A DNA stretch of 33,649 nucleotides, from NCBI GenBank assembly GCA_030595925.1, contig JAUVLC010000018.1, positions 1 through 33,649 of the forward strand. Direction: 5' to 3'. How positions within the stretch are numbered: position 1 is the stretch's first letter; each line of letters opens with the position of its first letter. Both the position numbers and the translations under genes were made by a program. Shown here piece by piece: positions 3,574-33,649 of this stretch. The notes beneath the pieces are model-generated. The model saw only the letters and a program-made list of their open reading frames with translations, searched no databases and was not told where the DNA came from. This DNA is from Clostridia bacterium. Its GTDB lineage: Bacteria; CBDUZB01; JAGLHV01.

Positions 3574-4647
<1,074 letters not shown>

Positions 4648-4662
4648 GGGGACAATTTTTAT

Positions 4663-5853
4663 ATGGATAAGATGACCATGAAGGATATAGCCATAAGAGA
4701 TAAAGTTTTAGTGCGGGTGGACTTTAATGTTCCGATGGAAGGGAACAAAATTACAGATACTACTCGAATAGAAAGAGTTTTGCCTACTATAAGATATCTT
4801 CTGGAGAAAAATTGCCGTTTAATATTAATGTCTCATTTGGGCAGGCCGAAAGGAAAGGTCGTCCCTGGTATGAGTTTAGCTCCGGTGGCCAAAAAACTGG
4901 AAGAATTACTAGGACAAAAAGTTATTATGGCTTCTGATTGTATAGGTCCGGAAGTAAAAAATTTAGTAGGCAATCTTAAACCGGGGGAAATTTTACTTTT
5001 AGAAAATTTGCGTTTTCATCCGGAAGAAGAAAAAAATGATCAAGGCTTTGCTTCCCAGCTTGCTGCGTTAGGGGATATTTTTATACAGGATGCTTTTGGG
5101 ACTGTTCATCGGGCACATTCTTCTACGGTAGGTATCTGTAAGTTTTTACCTTCGGCAGCAGGATTTTTATTGGAAAAGGAAATTAAATTTTTAGGTGATG
5201 TTTTAAAAAATCCGGAACGTCCGTTTTTAGCTATTTTGGGAGGAGCAAAGGTATCCGGTAAAATAGCAGTTATTGATAATTTACTCAACAAAGTGGATTC
5301 TTTGTTGATTGGCGGGGCAATGGCTTATACTTTTTTGGAAGCACAGGGAATAAAGGTGGGTAAGTCCCTGGTAGAAAAGGACAAAGTTGATTTGGCAAGA
5401 AACATATTAAAGAAAGCAAAAGAAAAAAATGTAGTTTTTTTGCTTCCCACGGATCATGTTATTGTCGAGGAAATTAGCGAAACAGCAGAGAGTAAATTAT
5501 CTCAGGGGATAGAAATTCCTGATCAATGGATGGGAGTGGATATCGGCCCTGGCACTATTTCGCGGTATAAAACAGTCATAAGACAGTCCAGGACGATTGT
5601 TTGGAATGGACCCATGGGTGTTTTTGAGGATAAAAGATTTGCAGCAGGGACAATGGAAATTGCTCAGGAAATAGGAAAAGTTACTCAAGATGGAGTGTTG
5701 AGCATTGTTGGGGGGGGGGATTCGGTTGCTGCAGTGGAAAAAGCCGGGGTAACTGAAAAACTTTCTCATATTTCTACCGGAGGTGGTGCTTCTCTGGAAT
5801 TTTTGGAAGGCAAAGAACTTCCGGGAATCGCTGCATTACAGGAAAAAGAATAG
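4663..5853 (+). CDS. pgk: Phosphoglycerate kinase
   Basis: Transfers phosphate between 1,3-bisphosphoglycerate and ADP, the first ATP-yielding step of glycolysis. Family marks are RVDFNVPM near the N-terminus, SHLGRPKG (3-phosphoglycerate site), LENLRFHPEE, and the C-terminal nucleotide-binding GGGDSVAAV. The 396 residues match the monomeric bacterial enzyme. GTTAGGGGGA before the ATG supplies the ribosome binding site. The gene follows gap with a 15-base gap. One oddity is that the GGG of the conserved GGGDS motif is encoded by an unbroken run of ten G (5710-5719), which is prone to slippage. The stop codon is followed at once by a tandem repeat array. Confidence 0.98.
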   Translation: MDKMTMKDIAIRDKVLVRVDFNVPMEGNKITDTTRIERVLPTIRYLLEKNCRLILMSHLGRPKGKVVPGMSLAPVAKKLEELLGQKVIMASDCIGPEVKNLVGNLKPGEILLLENLRFHPEEEKNDQGFASQLAALGDIFIQDAFGTVHRAHSSTVGICKFLPSAAGFLLEKEIKFLGDVLKNPERPFLAILGGAKVSGKIAVIDNLLNKVDSLLIGGAMAYTFLEAQGIKVGKSLVEKDKVDLARNILKKAKEKNVVFLLPTDHVIVEEISETAESKLSQGIEIPDQWMGVDIGPGTISRYKTVIRQSRTIVWNGPMGVFEDKRFAAGTMEIAQEIGKVTQDGVLSIVGGGDSVAAVEKAGVTEKLSHISTGGGASLEFLEGKELPGIAALQEKE

Positions 5854-5855
5854 TT

Positions 5856-6177
5856 CACAGATAACAGATAACAAATAGTCCATAGTCGATAGTCCATAGT
5901 CCATAGACAGAAACAGACTTAGTCCATAGTCCATAGACAGAAACAGACTTAGTCCATAGTCCATAGTCCATAGACAGAAACAGACTTAGTCCATAGTCCA
6001 TAGTCCATAGACAAAGACAAAAGACAAAGACAAAAGACAAAGACAAAAGACAAAGACAAAAGACAAAGACAAAAGACAAAAGACAAAAGACAAAGACAAA
6101 AGACAAAGACAAAAGACAAAGACAAAAGACAAAGACAAAAGACAAAGACAAAAGACAAAAGACAAAAGACAAAAGAC
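5856..6177. repeat. Tandem repeat array after pgk
   Basis: The array begins 2 bases after the pgk stop. The first part (about 5856-6010) is built of 7-mers such as AGATAAC and AGTCCAT, arranged in 30- to 37-base higher-order units that end in AGACAGAAACAGACTT; full units are at 5891-5920, 5921-5950 and 5951-5987. The second part (about 6010-6177) alternates AGACAAA and AGACAA. No T occurs on the + strand from 6009 to 6177. There are no unique spacers, so this is not a CRISPR array. Open frames across it are low-complexity artefacts. Confidence 0.9.
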
Positions 6178-6209
6178 TGCAAATGGCGAATGGCAAAAGA
6201 AAAAAGGCA

Positions 6210-6245
6210 ATTTTCCCCCTTAGAAAAAGGGGGTTAGGGGGATTT
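6210..6245. repeat. C-run/G-run dispersed repeat, copy A
   Basis: TTTTCCCCCTTAGAAAAAG is followed by a run of G, then TTA, then a second run of G and ATTT. The C5 block pairs with either G5 block, so a hairpin or a G-rich structure is possible. Closely related copies are at 22501, 23639 and 26911. Confidence 0.85.
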
Positions 6246-6657
6246 GACACGAACGAAGTGAGTATGTGACTATTTATGACTATTTGTGACGCAGTATTCA
6301 GGAGCCAGAGGTTTGAACGAGGAAAATAAAGGCAAAATATGTTTCTCTCTAGACACATAATTTTACCTTTCAGGCACGCAAAAACAAACTAAAAATGGAA
6401 AACTCGCTTTGCTCAGACAGTTCCATTTTTTTAACGCTTGTTTCTGCTAAAATTTGCTATATCGTTCGAAACACATTTCACCTTTATTTTTGGATTTGAA
6501 TTTGCCTGCCTGCCCGCCAGTCAGTAAGTTGGGGAGTTGGGAATTTGAAAAAGTGGTCAAATATAGTACATGGGTGTTTATGACATAATAATTGTAAGTT
6601 AAAAGATTTTAAATTGAGGGTTGTAAGTTAGTAACGATAAACGGAGAGGAAGAAAAA
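6246..6657. other. Intergenic region upstream of apgM with repeat fragments
   Basis: No gene is seen. A 10-bp inverted repeat (6391-6400, AAAAATGGAA, with 6421-6430, TTCCATTTTT) encloses a 20-base loop and runs into a T tract. It could be a weak terminator for the gap-pgk transcript. The stretch 6451-6490 is nearly identical to 23757-23793. I found no convincing promoter for apgM. Confidence 0.5.
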
Positions 6658-7866
6658 ATGGTAAGTCAGGAATTTTTGAGTAAGTTGACTGTAAAAAACG
6701 ACAAGAAAATAGTTCTTTTGATTATGGATGGTTTGGGAGGAGTACAGGATGAGTCTCTCGGCAAAACGGAGTTAGAAATAGCCAATTGTCCTAATCTGGA
6801 CGCTTTAGCTAAAGAAAGTATTTGTGGGCTAAGCGATCCTATTTCTCCGGGTATTACTCCGGGTAGTGGGCCTGCTCATTTGTCCTTGTTTGGATATGAT
6901 CCGCTGCGTTATGAAATAGGACGGGGTTTATTGGATAGTCTGGGTATTGATTTTGAGTTTACGCAGCAGGATTTAGCTTCCAGAGGTAATTTTGCTACTT
7001 TAGATAAAGAAGGTGTAATTACTGATCGCCGTGCCGGAAGAATAGCGACAGAAAAAAACAATCAAATCTGCAAAGAACTTTTTTCTGATTTAGAAATTGA
7101 TGGGGTCAAAATTTTTGTAAAGCCGGTAAAAGAACATCGCCTTTCAGTTATTTTTCGAGGGGAGGGGCTTTCTGATAAAATTAGTGATGTAGATCCGCAA
7201 AAAGAAGGATTGAAACCATTAAAAGCTCAGGCTTTAAATAGTGGTGCTGAACGGGCAGTGAATATTGTGAATAAATTTTTAAAAATGGCTAACGAAAAAT
7301 TAACTAAATTTTATCCGGCTAATACAATTTTATTAAGAGGGTTTTCTTGTATGGTGGATTTACCTTCTTTTAAGGATGTATATAAGTTGAATGCTGCGGC
7401 AATTGCCGGATATCCTATGTATAGGGGATTGGCCAGTTTGTTGGGTATGGATGTTTTATCGGTTACTAATTCAATAGAAGAAGAATTCAAACTTTTAGAG
7501 AAAAATTTTAAAAATTACGATTTCTTTTTTATTCATATAAAACAAACAGACAGTTCCGGTGAAGATGGCGATATGCCCAGGAAGGTGAAAGTGATTGAAG
7601 AAGTGGACAGGAATATTCCTTTATTACGGAAACTTTCTCCGGATGTGGTAGTAATTACCGGAGATCATTCTACCCCGGCCAGATTAAAAGGACATAGCTG
7701 GCATCCTGTACCTATTTCAATTTATTCCCCTCATTGTCGTTTTGATCCGGTAATAGAATTTACTGAAACAGAATGTATCAAGGGAGGATTGGGAAGGATT
7801 TTTGCCGGAGAGATAATGGCTTTAGCTTTGGCTAATGCAGGGAAACTGATTAAGTATGGTGCATGA
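6658..7866 (+). CDS. apgM: Cofactor-independent phosphoglycerate mutase, archaeal type
   Basis: Interconverts 3- and 2-phosphoglycerate without 2,3-bisphosphoglycerate, using two divalent metal ions in the cytosol. It belongs to the alkaline-phosphatase superfamily but to the short ApgM branch first described in archaea, not the roughly 510-residue GpmI. Evidence: 402 residues; metal-binding MDGLGG near residue 23; the PGSGPAHLSLFGYDP segment with the probable catalytic serine at about residue 70; and C-terminal TGDHSTP followed by a GHSWHPVP metal site. An AGAGGAAG ribosome binding site precedes the ATG. It is separated from pgk by 800 bases of repeats but completes, with gap, pgk and ppdK, much of lower glycolysis here. 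Confidence 0.95.
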   Translation: MVSQEFLSKLTVKNDKKIVLLIMDGLGGVQDESLGKTELEIANCPNLDALAKESICGLSDPISPGITPGSGPAHLSLFGYDPLRYEIGRGLLDSLGIDFEFTQQDLASRGNFATLDKEGVITDRRAGRIATEKNNQICKELFSDLEIDGVKIFVKPVKEHRLSVIFRGEGLSDKISDVDPQKEGLKPLKAQALNSGAERAVNIVNKFLKMANEKLTKFYPANTILLRGFSCMVDLPSFKDVYKLNAAAIAGYPMYRGLASLLGMDVLSVTNSIEEEFKLLEKNFKNYDFFFIHIKQTDSSGEDGDMPRKVKVIEEVDRNIPLLRKLSPDVVVITGDHSTPARLKGHSWHPVPISIYSPHCRFDPVIEFTETECIKGGLGRIFAGEIMALALANAGKLIKYGA

Positions 7867-8360: not shown

Positions 8361-8442
8361 GGGCAGGTGGCGGAATTGGCATACGCGTGCGCTTGAGGGG
8401 CGTATAGGGAGACCTGTGCGGGTTCAAGTCCCGCTCTGCCCA
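8361..8442 (+). tRNA. tRNA-Leu, anticodon GAG
   Basis: The acceptor arm GGGCAGG (8361-8367) pairs with TCTGCCC (8435-8441), closing with a G-U pair. The anticodon stem TGCGC/GCGTA (8388-8392 and 8400-8404) encloses loop TTGAGGG with anticodon GAG at 8395-8397, reading CUC and CUU leucine codons. A longer variable arm typical of class II tRNA, then T-arm GCGGG-TTCAAGT-CCCGC. The discriminator is A8442 and CCA is not encoded. The next gene starts only 10 bases downstream. Confidence 0.95.
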
Positions 8443-12306: not shown

Positions 12307-12360
12307 ATTTACGGGTGATTAAACGCTAAATGATAATTTTTGGTTTGTAATTTAGATAAG

Positions 12361-12625
12361 TAGGGTCTGCTGAAAAACCCAGCAGTCCCTGATTTCACAG
12401 ATTAGAAATCAGATTACACAGATTAAAACTCGGACGACAAAATCGGTGTAATCTTTTCAATATCTGTGTAATCAAGGCTTACTGAAAAATTTATATGCAA
12501 TCAAAAGCGTAAGGTGTTTGGTGGTTTTGTACAAATTTTGTGCACTTTTAATTACATTTTTGTAATCATTTGCATATCTATTTCGGTGATATTTTGCATT
12601 TGTTTGTTTTTTTCAGTAAGCCCTA
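12361..12625. repeat. MITE-like dispersed repeat, copy 1
   Basis: A 265-base element in the gap between ppdK and pal. Its ends are imperfect inverted repeats, TAGGGTCTGCTGAAAAA at 12361-12377 and the complement of TAGGGCTTACTGAAAAA at 12609-12625 (14 of 17 match). Both ends are bounded by TA. It has no coding capacity. A shorter copy lies in opposite orientation at 28295-28458. The gap 12307-12733 contains nothing else that I recognise except a TATAAT at 12687-12692, which may be the pal promoter. Confidence 0.75.
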
Positions 12626-12733
12626 AGTAGGTATTGTTGGAAAAAGGGGGGGTGGGGTTAAAAAATCAAAAATTTTCAGGATGGGATATAATGTTGTTTC
12701 AACAAAAAAATAGAAAAGGAGGTAGGAGGCTTT

Positions 12734-22478: not shown

Positions 22479-22500
22479 GGGTAATGAGAAAAAAATGATA

Positions 22501-22539
22501 AATAATTTCCCCCTTTGAAAAAGGGGGTTAGGGGGATTT
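22501..22539. repeat. C-run/G-run dispersed repeat, copy B
   Basis: AATAATTTCCCCCTTTG is followed by A5, G5, TTA, G5 and ATTT. It differs from copy A chiefly in the central TTG. It lies 23 bases after the tatD stop. The gap to the next gene also holds degenerate 7-mers (AGTCCAT, AGTCGAC, AGGCAAA at 22604-22624) related to the array after pgk. Confidence 0.9.
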
Positions 22540-22650
22540 AGATAAAAGACAGATGACAGAAAGTTATAAATTAAAAGTTATTAGTTGAAAAGTTTGAAAA
22601 ACAGTCCATAGTCGACAGGCAAAGACTTATTTAAAAATAAAAGGGAAAAA

Positions 22651-23589: not shown

Positions 23590-23638
23590 AGAGAGATAAA
23601 GGTTGGGGTAGTGTAAAAAATTAGATGAAAGAAATGGC

Positions 23639-23678
23639 AAATAATTTCCCCCTTTGAAAAAGGGGGATAGGGGGATTT
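23639..23678. repeat. C-run/G-run dispersed repeat, copy C
   Basis: Same plan as copy B, with GGATAGGGGG in place of GGTTAGGGGG. Like copy A it is followed by GACTATTTGTGACG, so the shared unit is longer than the C/G core. The preceding bases (GAAATGGCAAATAATTT) also match copy D. Confidence 0.9.
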
Positions 23679-23693
23679 AAGACTATTTGTGAC

Positions 23694-23793
23694 GAAGGGG
23701 CGACTCTTGGTCGCCCGAAAGGTTTGAAGGGTGGGCAAGCCCACCCCTACGCGAAAAATTTGCTAAGTCGTTCAAAACACATTTCACCTTTTT
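23694..23793. repeat. Double-hairpin element 3 plus shared flank
   Basis: Hairpin GGGCGAC/GTCGCCC at 23698-23716 and hairpin GGGTGGGC/GCCCACCC at 23729-23746 sit within an outer AGGGG/CCCCT stem. The following stretch 23757-23793 is nearly identical to 6451-6487. The rest of the gap 23590-23881 has no recognisable gene. Confidence 0.7.
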
Positions 23794-23881
23794 CAAAGAG
23801 GGGAGGACGACGGGAACACAAAACTAAACAAATATTCCCGTTAACAAATTATATGAATTATAAACTAAATGTCAAATACTT

Positions 23882-26910: not shown

Positions 26911-26949
26911 TGGTAAATAATTTCCCCCTTTGAAAAAGGGGGGTAGGGG
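26911..26949. repeat. C-run/G-run dispersed repeat, copy D, left part
   Basis: The same element as copies B and C, interrupted after GGGGGGTAGGGG by the insertion sequence. The remainder continues at 28277-28293. Positions 26940-26949 are the left target duplication GGGGTAGGGG. Removing the IS and one duplicate restores a full-length repeat. Confidence 0.92.
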
Positions 26950-28276
26950 CACTAGTGTCCGGTTGTTTCTGGGCTGATCTTTGAAATATATAATAAAATC
27001 AACAAGTTTTAGCGAAAATAAAATTTTATGATTTGAATTTACTTTTTCATTTATGCAATAATAATTATTAAATCTATTTGGCCGGAGGCATAAATGAACA
27101 TTGGAAAATCTATTTTCGCTCAACTCATGGAATTTATACCACATTACGAATTTAGTAAATGTGTAAAAAAATATCAAGGTAATTATAAAGTACATAAGTT
27201 CGCATGTTGGGAACAATTCCTATGTATGGCATTTGCCCAACTTACTTATAGAGAAAGTCTTCGTGATATTGAAGCTTGTCTTCGTTCAGCGAAACAGAAA
27301 CTTTATCATCTTGGCATTAAAAGCAAAATATCTCGTAGTACTCTTGCTAACGCTAATGAAAGAAGAGATTGGCGTATTTATCGAGACCTTGGATATTCTC
27401 TTATTCAACGCGCTAATAAACTTTATTCAGGTAAAGACTTTGCCATATCTTTAAAGAATGTAGTGTATGCATTAGATGCTACATCTATAGAACTTTGCGT
27501 ATCTCTTTTTCCTTGGGCTGCATATTGTAAAAAACAAGCAGCTATTCAAATGCATACATTATTAAATTTACGAGGGAATATCCCTTCAGTAATTGTTATT
27601 ACAGATAAAAAATTCTCTGAGCGAAAAATTCTCGACGAATTAATCATAGAACCAGGAGCTATATACATACTAGATCGAGGCTATACTGATTATGCTCGTT
27701 TTTATTCTATACACCAAAATCAAGCATATTTTTTGACACGAGCTAGAATAAATTTTAGTTTCAAAAGATTGTATTCTCTAAAAGTTGATAAAACAACTGG
27801 AATACAATGTGACCAAGTTGTTTGTATAAAACATTATAATTGTAAAAAATTGTTTCCAGACAAATTACGCCGTATAAAATATACTGATTTAAAAACAGGC
27901 AAACATTTAGTTTTTTTAACGAATAATATGAATCTACCAGCAAAAACAATTGCAGATTTATATCGCAGTCGTTGGCAAATAGAATTATTTTTTAAATGGA
28001 TAAAACAACATTTAAGAATAAAAGCTTTTTATGGACGAACTGAAAATGCTGTAAAAACACAAATTTGGATAGCTACATCAATTTATGTGCTTATAGCAAT
28101 TGTGAAGAAAGAACTTAAACTGGAATTAAATCTCTACACAATTCTACAGATTTTAAGTGTATCCTTATTTGAAAAAGTACCGATTTTACAAGCACTTTCT
28201 GATTTTGATTGTCAAAGAACAAGTCACGATTCCCAAATGTCCTTATTTTAAAGGCGAAAACAACCGGACACTAGTG
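26950..28276 (+). mobile_element. Intact IS4-family insertion sequence
   Basis: A 1327-base element bounded by perfect 19-bp inverted repeats, CACTAGTGTCCGGTTGTTT at 26950-26968 and its complement at 28258-28276. It is flanked by a 10-bp direct target duplication GGGGTAGGGG (26940-26949 and 28277-28286). Each tip is itself an 8-bp palindrome, CACTAGTG. One transposase gene fills the interior and has no frame break. Matching ends and duplications suggest a recent insertion. A 10-base duplication and the Y-(2)-R-(3)-E-(6)-K motif fit family IS4. Confidence 0.95.
27094..28251 (+). CDS. IS4-family DDE transposase
   Basis: A 385-residue transposase that catalyses cut-and-paste movement of the surrounding element. 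The N-terminal part (about 1-75; FAQLMEFIPHYEFSKCVKKY) resembles the DUF4372 domain of this IS4 subgroup. The catalytic triad is visible: Asp128 in YALDATSIEL, Asp194 in YILDRGYTDY and Glu297 in YRSRWQIELFFKWIKQ. The last also forms the IS4 signature Y-x2-R-x3-E-x6-K. A GGAGG site lies before the ATG. The frame is complete, so the enzyme is probably active. Codon choice (more CGT, CGA and CAT) appears different from the neighbouring housekeeping genes, fitting foreign origin. Confidence 0.95.
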   Translation: MNIGKSIFAQLMEFIPHYEFSKCVKKYQGNYKVHKFACWEQFLCMAFAQLTYRESLRDIEACLRSAKQKLYHLGIKSKISRSTLANANERRDWRIYRDLGYSLIQRANKLYSGKDFAISLKNVVYALDATSIELCVSLFPWAAYCKKQAAIQMHTLLNLRGNIPSVIVITDKKFSERKILDELIIEPGAIYILDRGYTDYARFYSIHQNQAYFLTRARINFSFKRLYSLKVDKTTGIQCDQVVCIKHYNCKKLFPDKLRRIKYTDLKTGKHLVFLTNNMNLPAKTIADLYRSRWQIELFFKWIKQHLRIKAFYGRTENAVKTQIWIATSIYVLIAIVKKELKLELNLYTILQILSVSLFEKVPILQALSDFDCQRTSHDSQMSLF

Positions 28277-28293
28277 GGGGTAGGGGGATTTAT
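28277..28293. repeat. C-run/G-run dispersed repeat, copy D, right part
   Basis: The right target duplication GGGGTAGGGG (28277-28286) followed by GATTTAT, the end of the interrupted repeat that starts at 26911. Confidence 0.9.
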
Positions 28294-28294
28294 T

Positions 28295-28458
28295 TAGGGT
28301 GTTAAAATCCAAAATCACCCAAAAACCTTGCATTTTTGGTTGCATATAAATTTTTCAGTAAGCCTTGATTACACAGATATTGGAAAGATTACACCAATTT
28401 TGTTGTCTGGGTTTAATCTGTGAAATCAAGGGCTGCTGAGTTTTTTCAGCAGACCCTA
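28295..28458. repeat. MITE-like dispersed repeat, copy 2 (shortened, inverted)
   Basis: The stretch from about 28314 to 28458 matches the complement of 12361-12560, for example TGCATATAAATTTTTCAGTA at 28341-28360 and TTGATTACACAGATATTG at 28365-28382. It lacks about 100 bases of copy 1, including an internal ATTACACAGATTA-like duplicate. The dxr-proximal end forms CTGCTGA/TCAGCAG, a 7-bp hairpin at about 28433-28452. Confidence 0.8.
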
Positions 28459-28478
28459 ATTATTGACAGAGAGGAATT

Positions 28479-33502: not shown

Positions 33503-33554
33503 GATTCAGGATACAGGATTCACGATTCAGGATTCACGATACAGGATTCACGAT
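33503..33554. repeat. Heptamer tandem repeat after proS
   Basis: Seven direct 7-mers in exact phase starting at the first base after the proS stop: GATTCAG, GATACAG, GATTCAC, GATTCAG, GATTCAC, GATACAG, GATTCAC, then GAT. Related 7-mers (GATGCAG, AATACAG, GATTC) resume at 33631 and run off the end of the window. Confidence 0.9.
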
Positions 33555-33581
33555 AAAAAAATTACAGATTGCAATGTTTAT

Positions 33582-33618
33582 CCTCTCCCTTGAGGGGAGA
33601 GGACTAAGGTGAGGGTGA
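33582..33618. repeat. Hairpin repeat related in plan to the C-run/G-run elements
   Basis: CCTCTCCC (33582-33589) pairs with GGGAGAGG (33595-33602) around a 5-base loop TTGAG, and is followed by ACTAAGGTGAGGGTGA. The layout of C-rich arm, TTGA, G-rich arm, TA, then a second G-rich block is that of the repeats at 6210, 22501, 23639 and 26911. It could also be the proS terminator, although no T-run follows. Confidence 0.65.
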
Positions 33619-33649
33619 GATTACAAACAGGATGCAGAATACAGGATTC

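Follow-up and report, generated by a model that had tools for sequence, protein, structure and literature searches.

The window analysed here is a 33,649-nt stretch of a 2.6-Mb assembly (hereafter G000), on which a custom gene-calling script trained on long ORFs placed 32 genes. Within it, the phosphoglycerate kinase gene (pgk) stands between two other glycolytic genes, and an array of short tandem units occupies the gap behind it (Table 1). The initial annotation had this array begin 2 bases past the pgk stop, in the likely 3' untranslated region of an essential operon. The first point was confirmed in the sequence, and Pfam matches place the array between pgk and the phosphoglycerate mutase gene. 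After the TAG come TT and then CACAGATAACAGATAACAAATAGTCCATAG; the chain of words opens with CACAGATAACAGATAACAA and continues with AGTCCAT heptamers. The units are variable and are not perfect copies. TRF reported a 37-mer built of AGTCCAT units at 5883-6013 and a 13-mer, AGACAAAGACAAA, at 6009-6173 (12.5 copies, 97% matches), and unit length in the T-free tract alternates between 6 and 7. The progression from AGTCCAT to AGACAAA/AGACAA described earlier therefore holds, except that GATAACA-type heptamers, and not AGTCCAT, are the first words. The segment said to lack T measures exactly 169 nt and is T-free because the repeat unit itself is; the next longest T-free run in the window is 40 nt. 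Behind these units come TGCAAATGGCGAATGGC and then the hairpin CCCCCTTAGAAAAAGGGGG. The mosaic thus extends beyond 6177, with AAATGGC units from 6181, the hairpin, and a dispersed MITE-like repeat whose inverted ends are imperfect when read by eye.

Table 1. Features of the pgk locus and other repeat-bearing sites in the window
Feature	Position	Strand	Basis or remark
Glyceraldehyde-3-phosphate dehydrogenase gene, preceding pgk			Pfam
pgk, phosphoglycerate kinase	4663..5853	+	PF00162, 5e-163; stop TAG 5851-5853
GATAACA-type heptamers immediately 3' of pgk stop	5856..5876	+	sequence reading
AGTCCAT heptamer block, 30/37-nt higher-order units	5877..6008	+	TRF, sequence; similar segment behind pgk in G001
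T-free AGACAAA/AGACAA tract, 169 nt	6009..6177	+	expanded linker between two dispersed words
AGACTGCAAATGGCGAATGGC	6174..6200	+	junction common to 10 other stretches
CCCCCTTAGAAAAAGGGGG hairpin module	6215..6233	+	also at 22509, 23648 and 26924 of the window
Dispersed MITE-like repeat	about 6316..6493	+	right limit approximate; 8 copies in sample by left end
Cofactor-independent phosphoglycerate mutase gene, next after pgk	6658..7866		Pfam
Word- and hairpin-bearing insertion behind TatD-family gene	22479..22650	+	absent from G001 and G002
Word- and hairpin-bearing gap, 279 nt	23590..23868	+	19 nt in G002, 55 nt in G001
GATTCAG/GATACAG heptamer array	33503..33555	+	starts at first base after proS stop

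As had been anticipated, any transcript continuing past pgk would carry a U-free stretch with no predicted structure, the T-free tract folding at 0 kcal/mol. The description of the tail as weakly structured applies to this tract and not to the tail as a whole: the predicted fold of 5854-6250 is stronger than that of most shuffled sequences (z -2.4; 2 of 100 shuffles as good). The initial annotation had named a terminator between pgk and the array as evidence against such a tail, and our search found none there. Three terminator-like matches occur in 5600-6900 (shuffle mean 1.0), one within pgk (5777-5797) and two, overlapping, within the next gene (6860-6877); the stretch from 5798 to 6859 is free of them, and so are the array itself and the space between it and the stop. 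The hairpin at 6215-6233 is not followed by a T-run and does not have the form of an intrinsic terminator (hairpin plus T-run). An Rfam scan of the window returned only a tRNA (8361-8442) above the gathering score, and the array matched no RNA family. A lack of Rho was considered as a cause of such tails and rejected; Rho is encoded in the genome, and its absence therefore cannot account for them.

The words found behind pgk are dispersed through the genome of this uncultivated bacterium. A 16-mer, AGTCCATAGTCCATAG, occurs 108 times in the G000 assembly (65 on one strand, 43 on the other), and its reversed control does not occur at all. A motif-centred sample was drawn, comprising 60 stretches (59 of them around listed sites); together with the window, these contain 64 clusters of the 16-mer. 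Perfect-repeat counting yields few arrays because the units vary. Some loci nevertheless carry sizeable runs, with about 10 AGTCCAT units in L129 and long, perfect runs of AGATAAC and AGACAA in L135 and L143. The contigs of L114, L132 and L135 start inside long perfect heptamer or hexamer arrays. Among the 55 contig ends inspected, three lie within perfect repeat arrays; we therefore conclude that the assembler broke at such arrays and that those lengths are lower bounds. The proposed search for other arrays directly after stop codons was productive, with one at 33503 behind proS and many elsewhere. Similar words stand where the contig ends, about 100 nt further on from the proS array (33503-33649).

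The repeat is a mosaic made of short words with a period of 7 or 8. The tendency is for AGTCCAT words to come first and a C5/G5 hairpin last, and for AGACAAA, AGTTATN, GGCACAAA and AAATGGC words to stand between them. The junction AGACTG(C/T)(A/G)AATGG was found at one place in each of 11 stretches, and a longer succession of AGTCCATAGA(C/T)AA, an A-rich linker and AGACTG(C/T)(A/G)AATGG at one place in each of 9 stretches, among them that of pgk. The position of the linker is taken up at pgk by the T-free tract; most other copies have a short linker (e.g., CAGATAAA in L131), and L145 has one enlarged to about ten AGACAAA-like units. Gaps between unrelated genes can be aligned over long distances, the pgk gap with that of L153 (455 columns, 76%) and the L136 gap with that of L128 (396 columns, 84%). 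In three of the eight copies of the MITE-like repeat (L128, L151 and L153), a heptamer block lies inside the repeat at the same junction.

By mean position within a gap, AGTCCAT preceded AGTTATN (27 versus 5), GGCACAAA (21 versus 2) and the hairpin (14 versus 3), all beyond label shuffles, and was weakly ahead of AGACAAA (12 versus 6) and AAATGGC (9 versus 6). AAATGGC in turn preceded the hairpin (8 versus 1). Several word pairs had no order by this measure, such as AGTTATN and GGCACAAA (6 versus 7). A first-occurrence measure puts AGTCCAT in the lead nearly everywhere, but it favours words with many occurrences; by this measure the order seen at pgk, with GATAACA ahead of AGTCCAT, is the rarer one (4 of 24). 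A strict genome-wide word order was therefore dropped in favour of a tendency, and the case rests on the shared junctions and alignments. Read from sequence, these favour dispersal of pre-assembled blocks over an order made by local slippage.

Copies in the motif-centred sample have a marked position and orientation relative to genes. The 64 clusters fell into tandem gaps in sense (39) or antisense (7), convergent gaps (5) and a divergent gap (1), with one inside an ORF and 11 flanked by a gene on a single side; positions drawn at random from the gaps of these stretches were divided between sense and antisense as 803 and 852. Tandem sense clusters were closer to the upstream stop than to the next start in 37 of 39 cases (random, 414 of 803). 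Distances of at most 60 nt from the stop were seen for 29 of 39 (159 of 803 random positions), that at pgk being 37 nt, and distances of at most 60 nt from the next start for 0 of 39 (124 of 803). Polarity on a downstream gene can have no part in convergent gaps, yet 7 of 9 AGTCCAT sites there (5 stretches) lay nearer the stop they read away from, which favours an anchoring mechanism over polarity. Antisense AGTCCAT sites made up 11 of the 63 in tandem gaps; 7 of these 11 point away from a gene whose start is 65-93 nt distant. This placement recalls a rule described for the heptameric repeats of PMC4692102, which stand nearer the 5' neighbour whatever its orientation.

Other words showed a similar orientation in tandem gaps, most of which were chosen for their AGTCCAT content. 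Sense outnumbered antisense for GATAACA (18 versus 4), AGACAAA (15 versus 2), AGTTATN (23 versus 6), GGCACAAA (16 versus 5), AAATGGC (17 versus 0) and the hairpin (25 versus 3), and the MITE-like repeat was in sense in all 6 cases. Binomial tests were applied to AGTCCAT, these five words, the hairpin and CTAAATT. The p-values for the five words and the hairpin ranged from 0.027 to 1.5e-5; CTAAATT had no bias (5 sense, 7 antisense), and TTGGTTT did not occur in sense (0 sense, 1 antisense, 2 convergent). It should also be noted that the copies are related by descent, and site counts are therefore not independent. A motif-free sample (20 stretches not selected by motif, plus the window, with two stretches masked) contained only 7 clusters of AGTCCATAG (3 sense, 3 antisense, 1 one-sided) and two of GTTATAAGTTA (1 sense, 1 antisense), and 8 of its 18 readable stretches were free of words. 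Its base composition was not special: A made up 0.365 of the 150 nt behind stops and 0.362 before starts, and T 0.315 and 0.330. Therefore, such tails are not general.

We compared the window with the two other genomes of the genus, G001 and G002, whose pgk genes are 83% and 90% identical to that of G000. Related words lie directly 3' of pgk in both. Part of the pgk block is probably old at its place, because G001 has TAGTCCGTAGATAGAAATAGACTTAGTCCATAGACA at the position where G000 has TAGTCCATAGACAGAAACAGACTTAGTCCATAG. The AGACAAA expansion was found in G000 only. At least one congener could be compared at 24 of the 31 junctions in the window, and at two of the 24 (behind 22478 and 23589) G000 has word- or hairpin-bearing insertions absent from both congeners. 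Word patterns had no match on the congener contigs for these two junctions. At the first, the congeners have 16 and 13 nt from stop to ATG in an alignment read by eye; the gene caller set the start further upstream, giving an overlap. In a comparison with one congener, the hairpin behind 26892, which has an insertion sequence inside in G000, corresponds to 24 nt in G001. AGTCCAT in the congener stretches was seen in tandem sense (7), antisense (1) and one-sided positions (3).

Outside G000 the repeat is sparse. In a search of 386 genomes, the 16-mer was found 3 times in G001, 9 times in G002, and once each in 3 of the 383 genomes beyond the genus, which share only the domain with G000; AGTTATN triplets occur in 9 of these 383. 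Of the 80 pgk matches kept, the best named ones are 63% identical and carry the label Elusimicrobia. None of 80 loci from named relatives, regardless of whether a pgk stop was recognised, had an array of period 5-30 starting from -5 to +100 nt of the pgk end. Matches in viral contigs (29 stretches) are at about chance level for tens of gigabases, by our estimate. The AGTCCAT word does recur outside the genus in viral contigs with a period-7 context, clearly so in five (L260, L263 at 4012-4048, L266, L267 and L269).

Taken together, these data lead us to regard the pgk array, on balance, as one overgrown copy of a dispersed mosaic repeat that is frequent in G000 and has few copies in its congeners. 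With the same measured preference, we lean towards an origin in which the mosaic settles behind stops in sense orientation, with filtering by survival and with local slippage changing unit number. New copies would arise when pre-assembled blocks are inserted or copied, in part within MITE-like repeats. They may persist just behind stops since both neighbouring genes are spared there, and in sense since the transcript is then A-rich and U-poor; the reverse orientation would bring long U-rich stretches into operon mRNA. Slippage would alter the number of units within a copy, and at pgk would have stretched an A-rich linker into the 169-nt T-free tract.

Targeted placement is a serious rival, if a rather unlikely one. 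A mobile system might place the mosaic site- and orientation-specifically at the 3' ends of genes, for example by acting at transcript ends or via an RNA intermediate. The orientation bias in tandem gaps, shared by the MITE-like repeat and the hairpin (25 of 28), is consistent with such a system, as are the pattern in convergent gaps, the insertion differences between congeners, and the presence in the genome of 13 matches to Y1 transposases and 2 to reverse transcriptases. However, antisense copies occur, and the heptamer block is without established common ends or a target duplication. Nor was a mover found at the eight loci examined (6 of the 13 Y1 and both reverse-transcriptase matches), which carry no words; around the six Y1 loci, the hairpin was likewise absent from 2-3.3 kb.

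The mosaic may instead be kept for what it does at the 3' end, which we consider unlikely. The heptamers would cycle through the three frames and provide backup stops, and the U-poor unstructured stretch that follows would shape RNA decay or termination. At 33 of 37 sites with the 16-mer at most 80 nt from a same-strand stop, every sense frame meets a stop within 60 nt, compared to 46 of 102 gaps used as controls. The stop trinucleotides of the first 90 nt add up to 287 when read in sense (218 in shuffles, sd 11) and to 61 when read in antisense (161 in shuffles, sd 10). Of the 37 element-bearing genes, 19 end in TAG, compared to 48 of 304 genes without words (p 4e-6), and in several element-bearing genes the repeat word itself supplies the TAG. 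In AGTTATN of the G000 sample, N is A (33), T (22) or G (35) and never C, the letters giving TAA, TAG and TGA stops; N = C does occur in some other genomes. In G002, moreover, the pgk TAG reads TGG, and the frame runs on for 7 residues, encoded by the repeat word, to a TAG inside that word (L181, 2189-2213).

Other observations stand against a ladder of backup stops. The copies are related, so few independent events underlie these counts. AGACAAA, GGCACAAA, GACGAAA and AAATGGC are stop-free, the T-free tract has no stops on either strand, and the ladder is interrupted by AGTCGAC and AGTCCAC units. None of the three frames is preferred (medians 21, 16 and 23 nt). Furthermore, PMC6764699 reports, in its title, that evidence for selection of fail-safe 3' stop codons is lacking in eubacteria. 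In its boldest form, which we hold to be doubtful, this reading would make the mosaic a spreading 3'-end element, common in the species and present in the genus, composed of stop-rich heptamers, a U-poor unstructured stretch and a hairpin, and acting on mRNA. The period of 7 would cycle the frame, and orientation and arrangement would be kept through the action on mRNA. All-frame backup stops and a transcription-transparent tail are a possible, unproven function of the mosaic.

A purely local origin, with each array grown in place by slippage as new units took over, is very unlikely. Unit numbers do vary among loci, perfect arrays occur, and the AGACAAA expansion is absent behind pgk in G001 and G002. 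However, unrelated loci share words, junctions and succession, and align over long distances, which contradicts a local origin for the succession of words and leaves it standing for unit number. The initial annotation had read the order of units as growth by slippage with successive takeover. Slippage is plausible for copy number, the linker having grown to 169 nt at pgk in a tract that both congeners lack; unit order as a record of takeover is not borne out, as eight other stretches have the same words in the same succession and the gaps align. Finally, it is most improbable that the pgk array is an assembly artefact of a short-read metagenome genome, for while some contig ends do lie in perfect repeat arrays, the flanks are unique on both sides, the 6/7 unit pattern is irregular, and related words stand at the orthologous place in two other assemblies.

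Dispersed, intergenic short tandem heptamers are known as STRR from heterocystous cyanobacteria. The G000 mosaic is likewise short-worded, tandem and dispersed, and differs in its units and host group. A similar placement is described for G-rich heptameric repeats, GGGGA(C/T)T and GGGAATC, in Nostoc and Xanthomonas, which have a period of 7 and are intergenic, mostly between co-directional genes (PMC4692102). Most downstream copies there are on the coding strand and at most 50 bp from the stop, and some overlap the stop codon itself; G000 likewise has 7-nt intergenic tandem units with the stop-proximal sense clusters counted above. According to the same report, those repeats are G-rich and quadruplex-forming and prefer 4 units, and the Nostoc copies prefer the non-coding strand. 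The G000 mosaic, on the other hand, is A-rich and U-poor, with several words joined at shared junctions, long arrays, a hairpin and MITE-like repeats; by inspection, its AGTCCAT, AGACAAA and GATAACA units contain no G-tract and are not of the G-rich quadruplex type.

TAACTGA direct repeats of Beggiatoaceae, Cyanobacteria and Bacteroidetes (PMC4679880) resemble the mosaic as intergenic heptamer arrays with a scattered phylogenetic distribution and, in some genomes, mixed heptamers. They are described as having one unit, with copies in the BOGUAY genome mostly just upstream of starts, whereas the G000 mosaic lies mostly behind stops. The TAACTGA unit is not present in the pgk array, and no sense cluster is start-proximal. 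Borg tandem repeats, as reported in PMC9879509, are A-enriched and T-depleted on the gene-carrying strand, and some start in the end of an ORF; they have perfect units and belong to archaeal extrachromosomal elements, whereas the units of the pgk array vary. The hairpin module and the 6316-6493 repeat resemble non-autonomous repeats of the REP/RAYT and MITE kind as these are described, but the heptamer blocks are non-palindromic and no linked transposase was found at the loci examined. Among the matches listed in a literature search, in which subscription journals are mostly missing, there was no account of a multi-word A-rich set. On this comparison, the G000 mosaic would appear to be new in being multi-word and A-rich, stop-proximal sense-strand heptamers being already known (PMC4692102).

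A few distant bacteria have been reported to carry heptamer arrays at the ends of genes, with no settled cause given in the reports cited here. In G000, dozens of related copies have a strand bias and shared junctions, and its congeners have word-free sites. These copies let one ask whether selection, a targeted mover or copying at 3' ends lies behind post-stop placement. If the tails do act on mRNA, they would represent a spreading kind of bacterial 3' untranslated region.

Other repetitive sequence was also seen in the window. A DDE transposase gene (PF01609 and DUF4372) lies in an insertion at about 26943-28330, just behind a C5/G5 hairpin; the insertion is flanked on both sides by GGGGTAGGGG, likely a 10-bp duplication. 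Two further gaps of G000, behind 12306 and 16063, exceed those of G002 in length because of sequence other than the words. The gaps 12307-12733 and 28252-28478 share another dispersed sequence (CTGCTGAAAAA and GATTACACAGAT) that is unrelated to the heptamers. In addition, a gene at 380-2212, TPR-repeat-like by reading, contains DNA tandem repeats of 102/204/306 nt at 522-1729.
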